A stretch of 8,415 bases of DNA. It comes from Candidatus Zhuqueibacterota bacterium (GTDB taxonomy: Bacteria > SM23-31). Each line of letters opens with the position of its first letter. Position 1 is the stretch's first letter. The notes below the pieces were generated by a model that was not told the DNA's origin, did not search any database, and saw only the letters and a program-made list of their open reading frames with translations. Of this stretch, positions 1-8,255 are shown one piece after another. The DNA lies in NCBI GenBank assembly GCA_022562855.1, contig JADFON010000056.1, forward strand, positions 1 through 8,415. The letters are read 5' to 3'. The position numbers were made by a program, and so were the translations under genes.

Positions 1-2540
1 GCAGGGTCGTATAAATCGGGTATATCCGAATTAACAAGTTCCTGTAGAAAGGGGACTTCATCCTTGCGGGCATGCCAATTCATCGCAGATAGTGCCGCAG
101 ACCGCAGTTCCAATGCCTGTTCCTCGTCCTTGATTAGGTTCATAAGAAAGCTCAGGCTGTTTCTGTAATCGGTCTTTGCGAGAAGCTCCGGAAAATGAAT
201 TCTCGATTCTTGCGGCGCGATTTCAAATAATTGCAATCCCAATTTGAAACAATGTTCCGTAAGTCCATACTGTTTTAAAAACTTTATGAACAAAACCCCG
301 GATGTTTTATGCATAATTTTTTTAAAGGTCTCAAGTATAAAAGTCTCGGCAAGCGCCGGACCGAGGTCCCAGATCACCTGGAGAAGAAAATCAATATCTT
401 CATCTTTATATTCGTCTTTTCCCGCCGGGGACGGCTTTTCCCACATAACATTTGCAAGAAACGCCTGCGAGAATTGTTTTGCGTATTCTTCAGCCGGAAC
501 GCCGCCCCGCCCAGCGGGATCGAATCGTGAATATTCCAAACGCCAGACCATTGCAACGTTTGGATCAAGCGCTATATTCGCACTGATCCTCATTGATGTA
601 CCGATACCCTGAACCCGTTTAAGTTTGTCGGGGAATACTTTCTTTAAATGATCACCGGGCAGTGATTCACAGAGGTATTCAACCGCCGGCAGGTTTTTTA
701 TTATCGAAACACACCATGACAGGAAAAGGACCCTGTTTACTTCAAAAGATATTTTAGTTATTTTTATCAACTCTTTTGTAAAAAGCTCTTCACCAAATGT
801 TACGGCAAACTTCCGGATTTCCGCTCCGATAGCGCTGATATTGTCCCTGTTTATCCTTCGTTCGAACTTGCTTATAAAATTTGAAACGCTTCCTGAGTAA
901 AGCGTCCGTGAATCGGCAACATTTCCCGTTTCGGGTTTGCTTGATTTCTCATAAATACCCAATCCGTCACCGGGTCTGCTTTCTTTTCTGTCCTTTTGAA
1001 TCTTTTCGCACGCCTTACGTAACATCTCGTTTTCATCCGAACTAATTGCTTGATCAAGGAGATTATCGATCTGGTCATCGCGAATGGTACTTAGAAAATT
1101 CCCGGATTTTTCTCTATTCAACTCGAACTTATCGGTCAACATAGATAGCAAATTATTATATACTGTCAACCGTAATTTATCATTGCAGTTATCGGAAGCT
1201 TTGAGCAAATTTGCCGCTGAAAATACGGTGTTTCTTGAAAGCGCTTCACCAATAAGAGGAGAAACATCGTCGGTCAGACCGGCATAAAAATGCAGCGGCT
1301 CGTCCCACCAGGGAAAGTCGAGCCTCCTGACAGTCTCTTCGAGGTCTTCACCCAACAGGCGGTAACCGGCAAAAAACTCCTGGAACAACTGGTGGTAAAA
1401 TTTTATGCGGCCGTCGGTTTCCGTCAAAAGCCCCATTCCGAGCAGTTCATCAAGTAATGTGTCGGCGGTATATCGGTCCTTTTTGAGAACGCTCCTTTCA
1501 ATGTTTCTTTCAAGAAATTTTCGAATTACCCCCCATACTGCCTCTTGCGATGTTCTTACCTCGCCGCGGTTTTGCAGGAAAAACCCGATGGACCCAGCCA
1601 ATTCCAGCATAATCATTACGCCCGCCGTCGTTGACGTCTTTCGTAGTTTTATACTTTCACTGCTGAACCAAAGAACGAAAAATTTTCTGAACAGCCTGCC
1701 GTAATTTAAGGGAAGCTCCCAATTCGATTCCCGATAGACTTTTAACGCCATGGTAAGTATAAGAGGGTTCGAGACTATTTGGGGAAACTCACGGTAAAAT
1801 GTCGATTTAAACGTATCTCTTTTTGAGGAAAAATCTTCGACGTCCTGCAGAGTATTTGCGATAAATTTGTCAATCTCATCAAGACTCAGCGGTCTGACAG
1901 ATAAGACAGATATGTGGAAAAGATCGGGAAAATCCCGGCTCCGGCAGCTTATTATGCAGGATGTTTTTGGATATAATGCGAGAAAGTGCTTTATATCCCT
2001 GACAGCATGATCCCATAGATTAAGAGGGCATTCATTGAGACCGTCAAGGATAACTAATAACGAGCCTCTATTTAACAATTTCTCTATTGTCTCATCAAAA
2101 TCACCTGAAAACGCATATGGATAAAATTGACCGGATATCATACTGCGGATGCTGTTTGTTCCTTCCTGCGGTCTATAAGAGTTAATCTCCAGAAAAACCG
2201 GAACCACTCCGGGGGTAAGACCTTCATCAATTGCCGCAGTATCTGAAAGATGATCGAGCAGAATTTTTGAGTTATGAAGCGAAAGATACTGTAACGCTGT
2301 ACTTTTTCCTGCGCCCGGATCACCGATAAGAACAAACCGTTTCAGCGTCCTGTGGGCTTCTACAATTCCCATGCCGCGGCGCAAATCACCCTGTAATATA
2401 GTATCACCCGATGAAAATTCCGTATCCACCGAATCGGTTTGCAGTGGTGTATAACGGGATGATAAAGCGTTAAAGGAATGAACAATATCTTTTAGATACC
2501 GTTTTATTATTTCCGTTGTCTTATGGTCGAATTCACTCAT
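1..2540 (-). CDS. NACHT-domain STAND NTPase with HEAT-like repeats (C-terminus beyond window)
   Basis: The frame is open from ATG at 2540 to the left edge, giving 846 codons with no stop; I read it codon by codon. Residues 1-65 are a short helical lead-in with no recognisable effector domain. A Walker A motif GDPGAGKST lies at residues 73-81 and a Walker B LLVILDGLNE at 161-170. A sensor-like CIISCRSRDF and a SNPLILTMAL segment follow, then the winged-helix signature HQLFQEFFAGYRL at 383-395. This order is that of NACHT modules. From about residue 420 on, the protein is a run of amphipathic helices resembling HEAT repeats, for example ALELRSAALSAMNW near the edge. Proteins of this family are signal-transducing ATPases that oligomerise after ligand sensing, and several bacterial ones protect against phage; the C-terminal repeats usually sense. 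Defence is an inference here. The missing C-terminus could hold an additional domain. It lies 111 bp downstream of the CorC-like gene on the same strand. Confidence 0.9.
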   Translation of the reverse strand, partial: MSEFDHKTTEIIKRYLKDIVHSFNALSSRYTPLQTDSVDTEFSSGDTILQGDLRRGMGIVEAHRTLKRFVLIGDPGAGKSTALQYLSLHNSKILLDHLSDTAAIDEGLTPGVVPVFLEINSYRPQEGTNSIRSMISGQFYPYAFSGDFDETIEKLLNRGSLLVILDGLNECPLNLWDHAVRDIKHFLALYPKTSCIISCRSRDFPDLFHISVLSVRPLSLDEIDKFIANTLQDVEDFSSKRDTFKSTFYREFPQIVSNPLILTMALKVYRESNWELPLNYGRLFRKFFVLWFSSESIKLRKTSTTAGVMIMLELAGSIGFFLQNRGEVRTSQEAVWGVIRKFLERNIERSVLKKDRYTADTLLDELLGMGLLTETDGRIKFYHQLFQEFFAGYRLLGEDLEETVRRLDFPWWDEPLHFYAGLTDDVSPLIGEALSRNTVFSAANLLKASDNCNDKLRLTVYNNLLSMLTDKFELNREKSGNFLSTIRDDQIDNLLDQAISSDENEMLRKACEKIQKDRKESRPGDGLGIYEKSSKPETGNVADSRTLYSGSVSNFISKFERRINRDNISAIGAEIRKFAVTFGEELFTKELIKITKISFEVNRVLFLSWCVSIIKNLPAVEYLCESLPGDHLKKVFPDKLKRVQGIGTSMRISANIALDPNVAMVWRLEYSRFDPAGRGGVPAEEYAKQFSQAFLANVMWEKPSPAGKDEYKDEDIDFLLQVIWDLGPALAETFILETFKKIMHKTSGVLFIKFLKQYGLTEHCFKLGLQLFEIAPQESRIHFPELLAKTDYRNSLSFLMNLIKDEEQALELRSAALSAMNWHARKDEVPFLQELVNSDIPDLYDP

Positions 2541-2651
2541 AATGATAATTAATTTCGAAGACAGGAATTGAAAATTTAGTCCCGTAACTGCGTTACGTCC
2601 GGGAAATTATAGCTGGATACTAAATTATAATGTGGGATAACCGGCATGCTG
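2541..2651 (-). promoter_or_regulatory. Leader region of the NACHT gene with an inverted repeat
   Basis: This 111 bp gap holds an imperfect dyad whose core is CGTAAC-TGC-GTTACG (2583-2597), flanked by TCC and GGGA. Two TATAAT hexamers read on the minus strand at 2611-2606 and 2629-2624, but neither has a good -35 box at normal distance. No T-run follows the dyad on the minus strand, so it looks more like an operator or leader hairpin than a terminator of the upstream CorC-like gene. No strong Shine-Dalgarno sequence precedes the ATG at 2540. Promoter activity is a guess. Confidence 0.3.
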
Positions 2652-3938
2652 TTATTCGGGTTCGGCGGGAGGTTTGTTCTCTTTCAGTATTTGGATAATT
2701 ACTTCCGTAATTCGGTTTTCCTGCATCTCGTTCACTGTTAGCTTAAGGCTGTCGATCTCGATGGTTTCACCTTTTTCCGGAATATGTCCAAGGTGAAACA
2801 ATATTAATCCCGAAATTGTGTCGTAGGCATCGTCATCTTCAAGATTCAGGTCAAGCAGCTCGTTTGCATCATGTATATTTAGTTTGGCGGAGATCTTAAA
2901 GGTATCGTCGCTGATTCTTTTTACCGGCTGCTCGAGGGGGTCGGTTTCGTCGTATATCTCACCGACCAATTCCTCAAGTACATCTTCGAATGTAACAAGT
3001 CCTGCAATACCGCCGTGTTCGTCCACTACAAGCGCCATGTGGTTCTTTTCTTTTTTGAATTGTCTCAAAAGGGCATCAACCATCATGTTTTCAGGTACAA
3101 ATACTGCCGGTTTCATAATCGACGTAATAAGGTCAGCCTTTTTGTCCGATAAGCCTGCCTGCAGAATATCCTTTACATAGACTACCCCCAGGATCTTGTC
3201 GACACTTTGCTGGTGAACCGGTATTCTCGAAAAAGTTAATGTATTTCTAGCTTTCAAAGCTTTGCCGATCGTCATCTCCGATTCGAATGTAAACATATCG
3301 AGCCGCGGGGTCATAACCGCCGCTACTTCGGTATTGTCCAGTTCAAACACATTATGAATGATCTCTTTTTCTTCCTGTTTGATTACTCCTTCTTCTTCTC
3401 CGATCTTGACGATTGTTCTTACTTCCTCTTCCGTAACGAGAGGATACTTTCGCAGGTAAGTGTCTCCCGAACCGATTCTATTCGATAAATTGATAAACCA
3501 GGCGATTGGTGAAAAAATAAGTTGAAACACCTTCATCAACGGGGAAATTGTCAGGGCGACTCGTTCTGCGTGGTTCATGCAAAATGATTTTGGATAAATT
3601 TCACCGAAGAGAAGTATAAGAATGGTCATAATTCCCGTAGAAATACCCGCGCCGTAGGTGAGCGCAGACGCGACATTGTATGAATCGAGAATATTTATTG
3701 TGAGTGATGTAGCTATGGCGGAGGCGCCGACATTTGCGAGATTGTTACCGATTAACACGGTAACCAGCAGTTTGTGCGGTTTGGATTTTAAACGTGTAAG
3801 CAGACCGGAATTACGTACTTTTTGCTCAAAAAGATGCCGAACCTTCAAGTCGGAAAGCGACATAAACGCAATTTCCGCACCTGAAAAAAAGGCTGAGAAA
3901 AAAATGAGGACAGTAAGAAGAATCAACGGAAATGTCAA
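2652..3938 (-). CDS. HlyC/CorC-family membrane protein (DUF21-CBS-CorC_HlyC)
   Basis: This 428-residue inner-membrane protein has the standard layout of the CorC/TlyC/CNNM family. A DUF21 transmembrane region spans residues 1 to about 165, with FFSGAEIAF (17-25), GNNLAN (64-69) and GEIYPK (112-117). A linker follows with the typical EEEGVIKQEEKEII. A CBS pair lies at about 205-330 (MTPR at 209-212, ILGVVYVKDIL, VVDEHGGIAGLVTFEDVLEE), and a C-terminal CorC_HlyC domain at about 345-420. Length and motifs are complete, so it should be functional. Family members are linked to magnesium or cobalt efflux and adenine-nucleotide binding through CBS; the older label hemolysin is misleading. The start is TTG at 3938: a GGGAGA ribosome-binding site ends about 6 bases upstream, no ATG lies in frame, and a TAG stop occurs 8 codons before. 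Nothing links it functionally to its neighbours. Confidence 0.95.
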   Translation of the reverse strand: MTFPLILLTVLIFFSAFFSGAEIAFMSLSDLKVRHLFEQKVRNSGLLTRLKSKPHKLLVTVLIGNNLANVGASAIATSLTINILDSYNVASALTYGAGISTGIMTILILLFGEIYPKSFCMNHAERVALTISPLMKVFQLIFSPIAWFINLSNRIGSGDTYLRKYPLVTEEEVRTIVKIGEEEGVIKQEEKEIIHNVFELDNTEVAAVMTPRLDMFTFESEMTIGKALKARNTLTFSRIPVHQQSVDKILGVVYVKDILQAGLSDKKADLITSIMKPAVFVPENMMVDALLRQFKKEKNHMALVVDEHGGIAGLVTFEDVLEELVGEIYDETDPLEQPVKRISDDTFKISAKLNIHDANELLDLNLEDDDAYDTISGLILFHLGHIPEKGETIEIDSLKLTVNEMQENRITEVIIQILKENKPPAEPE

Positions 3939-4146
3939 CAGGTTTCTCCCATTCTTTTCAAACTATACCCACTATCCATATGGAAAAAACCGGAATCATC
4001 CGGAGAAGAGTCTGTATCCATATCCTTTGTATTATTTAAACAAAAATATGAATCGATAGCGCAACTTTACAATTTGTGACTATGTAAAAAAGATATAAAT
4101 AAAATTAGTGTCTGTCAAGCAAATTCTAAAGGAAATAATGCCGATA
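3939..4146. promoter_or_regulatory. Divergent intergenic region with two small dyads
   Basis: This gap separates the minus-strand CorC-like gene from the plus-strand SNase-like gene and must carry the CorC-like promoter. It contains a perfect palindrome TCCATATGGA (3975-3984) and a hairpin-like CCGGA-ATCA-TCCGG (3990-4003), with a partial copy TCCATAT at 4017-4023. I find no convincing -35/-10 pair. The reading frame of the downstream gene stays open from about 4099, but that stretch is not treated as coding here. Confidence 0.3.
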
Positions 4147-4186
4147 TTGCATTTCAGGATTGATTTATCTATATTTGAATTCAAAT
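4147..4186 (+). promoter_or_regulatory. Candidate promoter with palindromic operator before the SNase-like gene
   Basis: TTGCAT (4147-4152) and TATATT (4170-4175) are separated by exactly 17 bases, a sigma-70-like spacing. The -10 box matches TATAAT at 5 of 6 positions; the -35 box only at 3 of 6. A perfect 14-bp palindrome ATTTGAATTCAAAT (4173-4186) overlaps the -10 box and the expected transcription start, where a repressor would sit. If real, this promoter excludes the upstream GTG (4108) and ATG (4138) as starts and supports the ATG at 4201. Confidence 0.35.
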
Positions 4187-4200
4187 CTTCCATATTAGCT

Positions 4201-4890
4201 ATGACTGTATTAAGATCAAAATTGTTTCCTGCGGTACTTTACGGTATTCTGATTTTTTTCGCTTCGTCAGTATCAGGGCAGGAACGGTATCCCGATAAAA
4301 TATTTCCCCGGTCGCAGAACTGGTCGGTAGACTGCAAGATATACAGGCTTACCGAAAAAACCGTAATAGTTCTTTTCCAGGGTCAGGAAATTCCAATAGA
4401 AATACAACGGACTTCGCTTAAGAAATTGGAATACGAAGACGGAAGACAGGTCATTTTCAACCGGTTTGGACAAATAGAAGGTGAAATAACGCTTTCACGA
4501 CCTGTGCAAATCCGGGAGGTGTTAAATCCGGGACTCGTAAAATTGTCCGACGGTGAGGAGGTTGTATTGAATGGAATAGATTTCAGCCTGCCCGCCGATT
4601 CACTCAGTCTGCATTATTTCGAAAGTGGAACGAACTACGTCAGGAGTCTCGTTCTCAGGTCAACCGTTCAACTCCAGTTTGACATTCAGCAGAGGGATGA
4701 ATTCGGACGTTTGCTTGCTTATGTGATTCTGCCGGGCGGTTTGATACTCAACGCAGAGATAATCCGCCGCGGGTTCTGCCCGCTTGACCGTGGCAGAAAC
4801 CTGATCTACCTGCAGGACTTCAAACTGCTCGAAGAAGAAGCAAAAAGGGAAGTGCGCGGGATTTGGAGTAAAGGGGGACAGCAACCCTGA
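4201..4890 (+). CDS. Exported protein with degenerate SNase-like (thermonuclease) domain
   Basis: With the start at 4201 the protein has 229 residues and begins with a normal signal peptide: basic MTVLRSK, hydrophobic core, and SSVSG-QE at the likely cleavage site (about 26/27). In-frame starts at GTG 4108 or ATG 4138 (the latter behind AAAGGAAA) would add 21-31 residues before the signal peptide, so 4201 is preferred. Residues 27-100 form an unassigned beta-rich part (KLEYEDGRQV). Residues about 105-224 follow the staphylococcal nuclease fold: KLSDGEEVVLNGID, QRDEFGRLLAYV, then NAEIIRRGF and EEEAKREVRGIWS, which match the family C-terminus closely. Aligned by eye to the S. aureus enzyme, Arg87 is kept (R170), but Arg35 is V122, Glu43 is L130 and Asp21 is G111. 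A hydrolytic role is therefore unlikely; it may bind nucleic acid or a protein in the periplasm. It stands alone as a plus-strand gene. Confidence 0.8.
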   Translation: MTVLRSKLFPAVLYGILIFFASSVSGQERYPDKIFPRSQNWSVDCKIYRLTEKTVIVLFQGQEIPIEIQRTSLKKLEYEDGRQVIFNRFGQIEGEITLSRPVQIREVLNPGLVKLSDGEEVVLNGIDFSLPADSLSLHYFESGTNYVRSLVLRSTVQLQFDIQQRDEFGRLLAYVILPGGLILNAEIIRRGFCPLDRGRNLIYLQDFKLLEEEAKREVRGIWSKGGQQP

Positions 4891-5120: not shown

Positions 5121-5276
5121 TTACTTCACAGTACACATGCCGCAACATTGACCACTCGACATATCGCATTTCATGTCGCTATTTTGGAAAGCATACTGAT
5201 TCACTGCAAAAGCGGCTCCGGCAGTCAAAAGAACCACAAGCATTATGCCGGCTACGATTTTTTTTGTTTTACCCAT
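5121..5276 (-). CDS. Small exported Cys/Met-rich peptide, putative metal-binding
   Basis: ATG at 5276 to TAA at 5121 encodes 51 residues, with AAGGAG ten bases upstream of the start. Residues 1-24 are a textbook signal peptide: MGKTKK, a hydrophobic core, and AGAAFA before the likely cleavage. The mature part is only about 27 residues and ends in MKCDMSSGQCCGMCTVK, with four Cys and three Met. Such a tail could bind a soft metal such as Cu(I) or Hg(II), or form disulfides in the periplasm. The family is unknown to me. It is the last gene of the run that contains the HMA protein and the CsoR-like regulator, and a strong terminator follows 31 bases later. Signal peptide, ribosome-binding site and terminator together argue that it is a real gene despite its size. 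Confidence 0.8.
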   Translation of the reverse strand: MGKTKKIVAGIMLVVLLTAGAAFAVNQYAFQNSDMKCDMSSGQCCGMCTVK

Positions 5277-5394
5277 TGCAATTCATCTCCTTACATGTTG
5301 TTCGTATTCACAGCACGGTGAATATGTATAATACAAACATATATGATTTTTTCATAGTTCCGCAAACTATATTTTTTTGTATTTCAAAATTGAA
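5277..5394 (-). promoter_or_regulatory. Upstream region of the Cys-rich peptide gene with two perfect dyads
   Basis: Between the NHL stop and the peptide start lie two inverted repeats: TATTCAC-6-GTGAATA (5305-5324) and ATAGTT-5-AACTAT (5354-5370). A minus-strand TATTAT (5333-5328) sits between them and could be a -10 box. The second dyad would then overlap the -35 region and the first would cover the transcription start. Neither dyad is followed by a T-run on the minus strand, so they do not look like terminators of the NHL gene. The peptide may have its own regulated promoter. Confidence 0.35.
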
Positions 5395-6366
5395 CTAATG
5401 TATTATTTCAAATTTTTGTATCCGGTTATTTCCGAAGTCCACGACATACACATAACCTTCGTCATCAACCACAACATCGGTAGGCATGTTAAACTGCCCG
5501 CCTGACATTCCCTCAGAACCGATAGACACGAGGTATTCGCCTGTATCGGAAAATTTTTGTATACGGTGATTGAAGAAATCGGCAACAAAAATAGTATTGC
5601 CCGGTCCGGCGGCTACGGCTGTTGCGGTCCTGAACCACCCGTTAAAACCGCCTGGAATATTTATAGCGAACGGACCTCCCCATTTTCGTTCAAACGTGCC
5701 ATCGGGATTAAACATCTGAATCCGGTCATTGTATGCGTCTGCCACAATTAACATACCGTCAGGTAAAAGGGCAACATCGGTCGGGTATTGAAAGTAGCCT
5801 GCCCCGATACCCGTTTCGCCGGTTGAACCGTACTGCTTTATAAAGCGCCCGTCCGGACTAAGCACCTGCACCCGGTGATTATAGAAATCAGACACATACA
5901 TTTGCCCTGATTCATCCACAGCGACACCGCCGGGACTGTCAAACTGACCTTCTCCTGTTCCTGATTCACCGAAGACAAATAGCGGATCGCCTTCAAGAGA
6001 AAATACTTGTATCCGGTCATTCAAATATTCTGTAACATATAATTTATCTTCAAAAATATCCAGATGCATAGGTCTTCCTAATTCACCGGTTTTGTCGCCG
6101 GTACTTCCAAATTCTCTCAAAAAGTTACCATCTAAATCAAATACCTGAATTCTGTTATTTCCAGAATCGCTAACAAACAATTCTTCACCGTTTATAGCTA
6201 TTCCAATGGGAGATATGAATTCTCCGGGAGCAGAACCCTCGTTCCCAAAAGTTAATAAATAACTATAACCCGGTTCTTTTGGAGAAGGAAACCAGTTGAA
6301 AATCAAAGAAAATAGAACCAGTAAAAAAACTACAGACAGAAATGTATATAATAATTTACGTTTCAT
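5395..6366 (-). CDS. Membrane-anchored or exported six-bladed NHL-repeat propeller
   Basis: The 323-residue protein starts with MKRKLLYT and a hydrophobic segment (about 5-25), either a signal peptide or an N-terminal anchor, so the rest lies in the periplasm or outside. Six NHL repeats follow, each ending in a variant of N-x-RIQ-x-F: residues 70-76, 116-122, 163-169, 213-219, 266-272 and 313-319. Each blade carries P-x-G/D-hAh and an hYVxD-type strand. Six blades make a complete beta-propeller with no room for a catalytic domain, so a binding or scaffold role is likely. NHL propellers are versatile and predict no ligand. Its ATG overlaps the TGA of the upstream HMA gene (ATGA), a sign of translational coupling and of a shared function. 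The frame ends with TAG at 5395. Confidence 0.9.
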   Translation of the reverse strand: MKRKLLYTFLSVVFLLVLFSLIFNWFPSPKEPGYSYLLTFGNEGSAPGEFISPIGIAINGEELFVSDSGNNRIQVFDLDGNFLREFGSTGDKTGELGRPMHLDIFEDKLYVTEYLNDRIQVFSLEGDPLFVFGESGTGEGQFDSPGGVAVDESGQMYVSDFYNHRVQVLSPDGRFIKQYGSTGETGIGAGYFQYPTDVALLPDGMLIVADAYNDRIQMFNPDGTFERKWGGPFAINIPGGFNGWFRTATAVAAGPGNTIFVADFFNHRIQKFSDTGEYLVSIGSEGMSGGQFNMPTDVVVDDEGYVYVVDFGNNRIQKFEIIH

Positions 6367-6722
6367 TTACCTCTTTCCTTAGGTAGTTTTGAAAACTTGA
6401 TTTCTTTCGCAGTAAATCCTGACTCTTTTACGATTTTTACTATGGTCTTCTCATCTACAGATTTACCCTCTTTCAGGGAAAACGTAACGAGACCTTTTTC
6501 GAAATCAATTTTCAAATCTAAAATACCATCGATTTTCTTCATCTTCTTTTCCAACCCGTAAACACAAAAAGGACAGGAAAGACCGTCCACCCTGACTTCA
6601 ACAATGTTTTCCTTTTGAGAAGATACCGCAACGGACGTATCTGCTTCCGATTCTGTTTGAGCGAATGCAATAGATCCGTTTAAAAGAAATAAAAGCGCTG
6701 CAATAATACTTACCTTTAACAT
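6363..6722 (-). CDS. Exported MerP-like HMA-domain protein with CPFC motif
   Basis: This 119-residue protein has a signal peptide (about 1-21, cleavage at SIAFA-Q), a Ser/Glu-rich linker (22-38) and one heavy-metal-associated domain (about 40-110). The metal-binding loop reads DGLSCPFCVYGLEKK, with Cys50 and Cys53 in place of the usual GMTCxxC; the ferredoxin-like fold is complete to ESGFTAKEIKF. HMA domains bind Cu(I), Hg(II) or similar thiophilic ions, and an exported single-domain version corresponds in place to MerP, the periplasmic mercury carrier. The metal here is not known. The start ATG at 6722 is preceded by AAAGGGA. It follows the barrel gene by 15 bases and overlaps the NHL gene by 4, so the three are almost certainly one operon. 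Confidence 0.9.
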   Translation of the reverse strand: MLKVSIIAALLFLLNGSIAFAQTESEADTSVAVSSQKENIVEVRVDGLSCPFCVYGLEKKMKKIDGILDLKIDFEKGLVTFSLKEGKSVDEKTIVKIVKESGFTAKEIKFSKLPKERGK

Positions 6723-6737
6723 TTTTTTCCCTTTCTT

Positions 6738-7514
6738 TTAAAAAATTAAGATTCTTGTTCCAAGTGTGAATATGAAATTCGTTTTTTGACCAGACGGCAC
6801 ATCCTCTTTGATGGGGATTTGCACACCCGCTTCAAGTAAAAATCTTCTGCTTGGGATAACCTGAATGCCGGGGGAAATAAACAATGTAGTCCGGCTACCC
6901 TCTAAGATAGTATTTCCATTTAATTCAAGATATGCATTTAATTGCTTTGGAGGATACACAACAGGTAAAATCGGATATCCTATAGCAAGATTATATACCA
7001 GATTGTCGTCAAGGTGCTCACCTACAGCATTATAACCGAATTCTCCGTATAAGCCATATTTAGTGGTAATATATGCGCCGATTAATCCAACCTTTGTTTG
7101 ATATGCGCCAAGCCCAATTGAAGGCATATTATCTGTATCACCGGTTGGAAACGTCTCTTGAAGTTTTATTGCTATACGAAACGTTTTTCCCAAACCGTCT
7201 TTTTGGTAAAGAAGAATTTTTGCAAATAATGAAACATCACCTAAACCTGATTGTGAGTTTATATTTTCAGGAGCAATTCTTAAAAATGGTGCAATTACTC
7301 CTATAAATATTTTGGTTGTTATGTTGTATGGGATAACAAACGGTTGTGCATATACGGTTGCATTTTCTTTTGAGATATACTTTCCAAACGTCCTGAATCC
7401 CCGTCCTTCGAGACCCAGAAATATTGGAGTATCGGTATAGATCGGCGGACCCTGGGCAAAACTTGCTTGCAGAGGAATCATAACAAGTATTATGATATAG
7501 AGAAATTTGTGCAT
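6738..7514 (-). CDS. Predicted outer-membrane beta-barrel protein
   Basis: The 258-residue product begins with a signal peptide (MHKFLYIIIL through ASFA-QG, cleavage near 20). The rest is a series of alternating-residue strands (TTKIFIGVIAPFL, DVSLFAKILL, FRIAIKLQETFPTG, YGLYGEFGYNAV, LNAYLELNGNT, TTLFISPGIQV, FLLEAGVQIPI) and ends in FIFTLGTRILIF, an aromatic-terminated last strand typical of outer-membrane barrels. Its style resembles the family annotated as transporter or MetA-pathway of phenol degradation (PF13557-like), but I could not confirm this. It may pass a metal or small solute across the outer membrane, or be structural. The ATG at 7514 has AAAGGA seven to eight bases upstream, and a candidate promoter lies just before. 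It is the first intact gene after the mer-like remnants and leads the barrel-HMA-NHL group. Confidence 0.85.
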   Translation of the reverse strand: MHKFLYIIILVMIPLQASFAQGPPIYTDTPIFLGLEGRGFRTFGKYISKENATVYAQPFVIPYNITTKIFIGVIAPFLRIAPENINSQSGLGDVSLFAKILLYQKDGLGKTFRIAIKLQETFPTGDTDNMPSIGLGAYQTKVGLIGAYITTKYGLYGEFGYNAVGEHLDDNLVYNLAIGYPILPVVYPPKQLNAYLELNGNTILEGSRTTLFISPGIQVIPSRRFLLEAGVQIPIKEDVPSGQKTNFIFTLGTRILIF

Positions 7515-7568: not shown

Positions 7569-7808
7569 TTATCGGTATAATCCCGAACCGGATATTCCAA
7601 AACACTCCGGCAATAATTGTACTGATCCGGTAATAACCACACTCGGAAGATTACCCTGCCTCTTAAAAAATATCAACCAATGAGTTCTCAGTATAAAGAA
7701 CAACGATAGGGCAAAAAAGAGTGGAATCAGTTTTAGACTCCATAGCTGCACAGCGCCTATTCCGGCGGCAAGACCACCTACAGATAAGGCTGCCGGTTCA
7801 TCCTTCAC
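7569..7808 (-). pseudogene. Shortened MerT-like membrane protein remnant
   Basis: A 79-codon frame starts at GTG 7808 and ends at TAA 7569. Its first residues, KDEPAALSVGGLAAGIGA, resemble the start of MerT-type mercuric transport proteins. LIPLFFALSLFFILRTHWLI followed by FFKRQ resembles the MerT second membrane helix and the loop after it. The stretch that should lie between them, including the vicinal Cys-Cys pair of helix 1, is absent, and the C-terminus after FFKRQ is not MerT-like. Another minus-strand frame over about 7560-7640 is hydrophobic (STIIAGVFWNI), which could be helix 3 after a frameshift. MerT is normally about 116 residues. I read this as a merT-like gene with an internal deletion and a frameshift, hence inactive. 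A real small membrane protein cannot be excluded. It overlaps the HMA fragment upstream by 11 bases. Confidence 0.5.
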
Positions 7809-7932
7809 ATGTCATTCCTGTTACCCGGAGAGTTACTGTTCCCGATGTACTTTCTTTTATTGTTGCAGGTGCTTGGCAAAATTCATCACGAACATCAGAA
7901 CTTAAAAATGTGAATAGTCTTGAAGTTTTCAT
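7798..7932 (-). pseudogene. Truncated HMA-domain gene fragment ending at GMTCEG
   Basis: ATG at 7932 to TGA at 7798 gives 44 residues. The last part, TVTLRVTGMTCEG, is the first strand and metal-binding loop of an HMA domain. The stop codon stands where the second Cys of GMTCxxC is expected, so the remaining 50 or so residues of the fold are missing. Translation past the TGA gives Arg/Cys-rich sequence unlike HMA, so readthrough would not restore the domain. No clear ribosome-binding site precedes the ATG, and the preceding text (FCQAPATIK) may be a linker of a longer lost protein. It lies 26 bases behind the csoR-like gene. Together with the MerT-like remnant it suggests decay of a merT/merP-type pair. 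Confidence 0.6.
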
Positions 7933-7958: not shown

Positions 7959-8255
7959 CTATTTGGCATATTTATAGATTACGTCCATCAGTTCTCTATA
8001 CATTGCATTTTGAGTCTCTTTGTCATCCGAACGAAAGGCATCCGTAACACACTGTTCTAAGTAGTTACGCATGGTTTCTTTACTCAGACCTCTCAAGGCT
8101 TCATGCACAGATGAAATCTGCATCAGGATATCGACACAATAACGACCTTCCTCGATCATCCTTTCAAGACCTTGAGACTGTCCGGTAATTTTTTTTATAC
8201 GAGTCAACAAAGATTTTTGACATGTATCTGTTAAGCAGCGTTGTGTTTGTAACAT
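7959..8255 (-). CDS. CsoR/RcnR/FrmR-family transcriptional repressor with Cys-Tyr-Cys site
   Basis: This 98-residue protein is a full-length member of the all-helical DUF156 family: LLTRIKKITGQSQGLERMIEEGRYCVDILMQISSV, then the second helix to NYLEQCVTDAF and a C-terminal helix ending DVIYKYAK. Family members are tetrameric repressors that leave DNA when they bind Cu(I), Ni(II), formaldehyde or persulfide. In copper-sensing CsoR the ligands are Cys-His-Cys. Here the positions are Cys40, Tyr65 and Cys69, so the His is lost while both Cys remain, more like the sulfur-sensing CstR pattern. Two extra Cys (7 and 12) lie in the N-terminal tail. The ATG at 8255 has AAGGAG eight bases upstream. It is the first gene of the minus-strand cassette and probably controls it and itself. 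Confidence 0.93.
   Translation of the reverse strand: MLQTQRCLTDTCQKSLLTRIKKITGQSQGLERMIEEGRYCVDILMQISSVHEALRGLSKETMRNYLEQCVTDAFRSDDKETQNAMYRELMDVIYKYAK

Follow-up and report, generated by a model that had tools for sequence, protein, structure and literature searches.

Described systems related to the locus

The textbook mer system begins in the periplasm, and the crossing of the outer membrane by Hg(II) is drawn as diffusion; in mer biochemistry, an HMA-domain protein takes the soft metal in the periplasm and passes it to MerT-like partners. The transport module of the mer operon (MerP, MerT, MerTP, and MerC, together with MerA) shares an exported HMA dithiol carrier with the locus described here, and the cassettes of its relatives adjoin genes for MerTP, MerT, or MerC-like proteins, MerA, and MerR or ArsR regulators, with one instance of an HMA–HMA–MerT-like fusion. 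In contrast to the mer operon, the cassette adds an outer-membrane barrel, a membrane-anchored NHL propeller, and a Cys peptide, and at the locus itself the HMA protein carries a CPFC motif and falls below the MerP cut-off, the only MerT-like frame alongside is a weakly matching, broken one where many relatives have an intact transporter, and no MerA is seen in the genome.

Other described proteins resemble individual components. Channels of the COG4313/PF13557 type share the 12-stranded fold of the barrel (TM about 0.7 to 4rl8), but the barrel family is distinguished by its QGPPIxTDTPIxLGL N terminus and its fixed linkage to an HMA gene. The propellers of TRIM71, Thin, and ScyF have the six-bladed NHL fold in common with the NHL protein of the locus, which, compared with these, is a membrane-anchored bacterial protein and scores below the ScyF cut-off. 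The mer operon of Gelidibacter salicanalis, ordered ArsR–merTP–merA–hypothetical, agrees with the order in which Bacteroidota loci such as L051 (see below) begin, but barrel, HMA, and NHL genes are not described there (PMC10587081). The barrel, HMA, and NHL proteins of the cassette are not identified as mer components by any curated model at its cut-off, and the open-access literature that we searched holds no paper linking NHL proteins to mer or HMA genes or describing the module; within that literature, the envelope module of mer-type loci seen here is undescribed.

Organization of the locus

The window (the whole 8,415-nt stretch of DNA that was analyzed) is an entire contig, C62, of a metagenome-assembled genome of a Candidatus Zhuqueibacterota bacterium (2.5 Mb in 491 contigs, 80% complete). 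Its metal-related features, in minus-strand order, are as follows:

7959–8255, minus strand: CsoR/RcnR-family metal-sensitive repressor (PF02583, E 2.5e-24; alignment to solved CsoR proteins)
7569–7932, minus strand: broken stretch with a putative HMA N-terminal part and a MerT-like frame (frames shift; in-frame stop)
6738–7514, minus strand: predicted outer-membrane 12-stranded beta-barrel, PF13557/COG4313 type (PF13557, 8.5e-10; AlphaFold2; Foldseek; alignment)
6363–6722, minus strand: exported HMA-domain metal carrier with DGLSCPFCVYGLEK (PF00403, 5.9e-9; relatives; profile comparison)
5395–6366, minus strand: membrane-anchored six-bladed NHL beta-propeller (PF01436, 4.5e-41; AlphaFold2; Foldseek; alignment)
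5121–5276, minus strand: exported 51-aa Cys peptide with the tail KCDMSSGQCCGMCTVK (homologue in L044; further Cys peptide in L108)

The initial annotation had described the last four genes as tightly packed and all exported. Its set of open reading frames, the 15-base gap between the barrel and HMA genes, and the 4-base ATGA overlap between the HMA and NHL genes are borne out by the coordinates; tight packing holds for these three genes but not for the Cys peptide gene, which begins 118 bases past the NHL gene and has its own ribosome-binding-like sequence. Similarly, the barrel, HMA protein, and Cys peptide have hydrophobic, signal-peptide-like N termini by inspection, but the NHL protein is apparently anchored rather than secreted. 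Overlooked in that first reading were the CsoR-family gene, which lies 160 bases from the contig end, and the broken HMA/MerT-like stretch. Its remark that no dedicated P-type ATPase or RND pump is near reaches only as far as this contig end, and genes of both kinds are present on another contig (C65) of the same genome. A terminator-like hairpin (5083–5066) is located downstream of the Cys peptide gene, and Rfam and tRNA scans gave no matches.

The remainder of the window encodes an open 868-aa frame (3–2606, minus strand) that runs past the contig end and contains HEAT-like repeats and a NACHT-like NTPase domain (E 1.2e-5, slightly below the Pfam cut-off; no PADLOC match); a CNNM/CorC-type transporter-associated protein (2652–3938, minus strand), whose nearest model is GldE, under the GldE cut-off; and an exported protein with a C-terminal staphylococcal-nuclease-like domain (4108–4890, plus strand), which faces the metal operon.

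Properties of the components

(i) The barrel exceeds the PF13557 cut-off (39.5 versus 22 bits). Its AlphaFold2 model (built with 24 relatives; all models are of single chains) has 12 long strands at a mean pLDDT of 85.7, and the nearest solved folds in Foldseek are FapF (5o68) and the COG4313 channel 4rl8, at TM about 0.7. In the family alignment, the QGPPIxTDTPIxLGL mature N terminus is almost invariant, and the closest relatives of the window barrel (53 to 57%) are from Bacteroidota.

(ii) The HMA protein scores above the PF00403 gathering cut-off (36.6 versus 24.8 bits), with its CxxC present as CPFC, and far under the curated MerP cut-off (TIGR02052; 23.2 versus 92.55 bits). Its profile is related to CopZ, MerP, and ATPase HMA domains, of which CopZ-like and Cu-ATPase domains score highest.

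(iii) The NHL protein is modeled as a six-bladed propeller with an N-terminal membrane helix (residues 2–23; pLDDT 95.9) that matches the NHL domains of TRIM71 and Thin in Foldseek and scores 197.2 bits against a ScyF (NF035926) cut-off of 350. Its closest relatives (50 to 53%) are from Proteobacteria; a single Bacteroidetes MAG likewise reaches 53%. An alignment of 16 sequences contains no conserved Cys, and the propeller was rejected as a candidate thiol metal site; metal binding via thiols is unlikely, and because a conserved cysteine is missing, we argue that the protein would be a scaffold.

(iv) The CsoR-family repressor, aligned to 2hh7 and other solved CsoR proteins, keeps both Cys ligands and has Tyr in place of His61, so that the Cys–His–Cys Cu(I) site of copper-sensing CsoR becomes Cys/Tyr/Cys. 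In the adjacent broken stretch, the first frame is a 44-aa ORF whose last residues before the stop, VTGMTCEG, are those with which an HMA motif begins. The second is a 79-aa frame that is the top match in the window to the MerT profile, albeit a weak one (E 0.018, with the next at 1.2); the same slot in Bacteroidota holds Grx-like and merTP genes. We tentatively read 7569–7932 as a decayed or misassembled merP/merT-like remnant. Because MerT/CopZ-like selenoproteins exist, the TGA after GMTCEG (at about 7800) was considered as a selenocysteine codon; the downstream frame does not extend the HMA domain, and a broken gene is therefore likelier. A glutaredoxin-like remnant was likewise rejected, with matches in this stretch at chance level only.

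(v) A homologue of the Cys peptide occurs in Caldithrix (L044), with the tail KCEPSGCCGSCMIK, near-identical to that of the window peptide; a single short ORF separates its gene from that of a QGPP barrel downstream, after which an NHL gene begins. A different exported Cys peptide is encoded directly after the HMA gene in L108, a locus from Ignavibacteriae. The pattern CCGxCxxK-stop occurs in no exported small ORF of 386 genomes besides the window's own. Given this recurrence and the lack of other exported matches, the peptide is probably part of the system, in few lineages only. Between the HMA and Cys peptide genes of L044 (10718–12179) lies a pair encoding a sigma factor and a zf-HC2-type anti-sigma factor; sigma-factor genes are present in six related loci.

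Conservation of the cassette

The linkage of these genes was evaluated from each of the three main components in turn. The HMA-anchored sample comprises the best 80 of more than 400 loci in GTDB genomes, not selected by their neighbors: here, the barrel family is found in 71 of 80 loci and the NHL family in 43, all on the HMA strand, and among loci with at least 3.5 kb of flanking sequence on both sides, these counts are 37 and 25 of 39. Genomes contain only zero to four PF13557 copies (25 genomes), and a chance neighbor within 3.5 kb is therefore expected in about 0.3% of cases. With the barrel as anchor (E of 1e-12 or better in 386 diverse genomes), 10 genomes besides the window's were recovered, 8 of which have the gene adjoining metal genes (HMA, MerR, Grx-like, CopZ-like, or MerA), 3 of these with NHL; the matches without metal neighbors (G318 and G007) are among the weakest. 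With the NHL protein as anchor (1e-60 or better, same 386 genomes), all four strong homologues besides the window's reside in barrel–HMA–NHL cassettes.

The co-occurrence beyond chance that the initial annotation had proposed as a check is thus seen from all three anchors, and its view of a conserved envelope cassette for a thiol-loving metal is supported by these neighborhoods in many unrelated bacteria. We found neither the barrel nor the NHL homologue in genomes of the same family and same class, and since same-family genomes are without the cassette, we regard it as an accessory locus. The search for plasmid relatives produced one weak HMA match, beside a P-type ATPase in Marinobacter, with no barrel or NHL gene annotated there.

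Association with mercury genes

The recurrent neighbors in the 80 loci (best of more than 400) are MerTP-like (24 loci), MerR (24), MerA (18), and small MerT-like proteins (17), followed by Grx-like (13), CsoR-like (13), and ArsR (11) proteins and DsbD-like proteins with thioredoxin (9). Cluster assignments were confirmed with the MerTP model at 1e-6 or better for 25 of 26 tested MerTP-cluster members and with the MerA model at 1e-120 or better for 15 of 18 MerA-cluster members; a clear MerA lies within 6 kb in 15 of the 80 related loci. Among the groups in which the module is conserved next to mer genes are Bacteroidota, Proteobacteria, Gemmatimonadota, Zixibacteria, and Ignavibacteria. Gene orders such as ArsR–merTP–MerA–CsoR–Grx–merTP–barrel–HMA–NHL in Mariniflexile (L051), ArsR–MerT–HMA–barrel–HMA–NHL (G235), and barrel–HMA–NHL–MerR–MerC-like with MerA 3 kb distant (G377) place the module in mercury loci. 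The suggestion that the four genes form a pathway of their own is not supported by this comparison: their relatives often sit within or beside mercury loci containing MerTP, MerT, MerA, MerR, or MerC-like genes, and a stand-alone new pathway was rejected on this ground.

At the level of whole genomes, true MerA is present in 13 of 28 cassette genomes (not selected for MerA) versus 20 of 386 background genomes (Fisher p 7e-9, not corrected for relatedness). It is absent from the other 15, occurs in only two of nine cassette genomes in the barrel/NHL-anchored sample, and does not appear above the cut-off in the window genome, which is 80% complete. The Cys that corresponds to MerR Cys82 is present in 15 of 25 neighboring MerR proteins and absent from 10, several of which adjoin Gammaproteobacteria NHL cassettes; the metal may therefore differ between lineages, with Cu or Ag possible. 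Of the 39 loci with long flanks, 10 have genes for RND, P1B, or CDF transporters no more than 6 kb away.

In 17 loci (e.g., L098, 10336–10734), the HMA gene is immediately followed by one for a small MerT-like membrane protein with the motif TGTLVCCAIP; no Pfam or NCBIfam model matched the representative of this family. Such a gene stands by the HMA gene in only 1 of 25 loci with NHL versus 7 of 14 others (p 0.0014, uncorrected for relatedness), and given this near-exclusion, the propeller may mark a different hand-over route.

Proposed function and alternatives

We propose that the genes serve mer-type soft-metal loci as an envelope module, whose probable task is to capture and relay Hg(II), and we judge this model, taken as a whole, to have an even chance of being correct. 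It is based on gene content, predicted folds, conserved neighborhood, and mer association, and from it we infer the metal, the direction of transport, and the roles of the barrel as a metal gate, the NHL protein as a scaffold, and the peptide as a sponge. The barrel would provide a dedicated outer-membrane path for a soft metal, probably Hg(II) or an Hg–thiol complex, which the CPFC HMA protein would bind in the periplasm as MerP does and hand to an inner-membrane acceptor (MerT, MerTP, or a MerC-like protein in relatives), perhaps lost here. Hand-over from HMA to a MerT-like partner is supported by the natural fusion of two HMA domains and a MerT-like membrane domain in L106 (4915–5892). The anchored propeller would bind no metal itself but would keep the carrier and its partners together, the Cys peptide would act as a periplasmic thiol sponge or buffer, and the operon would be controlled by the CsoR-family repressor, which has two thiolate ligands but lacks the His. 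Counting against this model are the cassette genomes without MerA, the window's included; the ten MerR neighbors without the third Cys, which may sense Cu or Ag; the efflux genes near 10 of 39 loci; and the weakness of the remnant assignment.

A copper/silver module, in which the HMA protein would carry periplasmic Cu(I)/Ag(I), the barrel would aid efflux, and the mer association would reflect metal-resistance islands, is an unlikely reading that nonetheless accounts for several observations: the HMA profile agrees best with CopZ-like and Cu-ATPase domains, the third Cys is absent from some neighboring MerR proteins, a P-type ATPase precedes the cassette in G142, and the window's own genome contains a Cus-type RND efflux operon and, after it, the first part of a gene for an HMA-bearing P-type ATPase (L031, 1050–8387, contig C65). 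However, MerTP/MerA adjacency in many loci and the lack of His61 of the Cu(I) site in the window CsoR protein argue against this reading, as does the scarcity of efflux pumps, which only 10 of 39 loci have within 6 kb.

The top Foldseek match of the barrel, the amyloid secretion channel FapF, and the exported Cys peptides at the window locus and two related loci would also suit a secretion module, in which the barrel exports the peptide or its metal complex. Most cassettes encode no such peptide, however, and the fold is common to FapF and 4rl8, so it cannot separate secretion from uptake; we consider secretion improbable. Highly doubtful is a reactive-sulfur module, in which the CsoR relative, with two Cys and no His, would function as CstR, a persulfide sensor, does, and sulfane sulfur would be handled by the thiol proteins: thioredoxin-like and DsbD-like neighbors occur in relatives, but the regulators of those relatives are mostly MerR or ArsR, and the HMA and MerT partners indicate a metal. 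Chance proximity without common function, conceivable in that NHL and PF13557 are generic folds, has next to no credibility when three anchors concur over many phyla.

Implications for mercury resistance

Extending the envelope-module model beyond this locus, we suggest, tentatively and as a claim that may well fail, that many Gram-negative mer loci include, for Hg(II), a dedicated channel in the outer membrane and a periplasmic relay that the propeller scaffolds, with a Cys-peptide buffer in some lineages. The module also supplies markers for three families to which general models give no more specific names than "transporter," "HMA domain," and "6-bladed beta-propeller," and since cultured hosts such as Mariniflexile fucanivorans and Galbibacter sp. 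EGI 63066 exist, it is testable now. If the proposal is true, Hg entry would not be mere leakage via general porins, and the channel–carrier–propeller module would close the outer-membrane gap in the textbook mer system.
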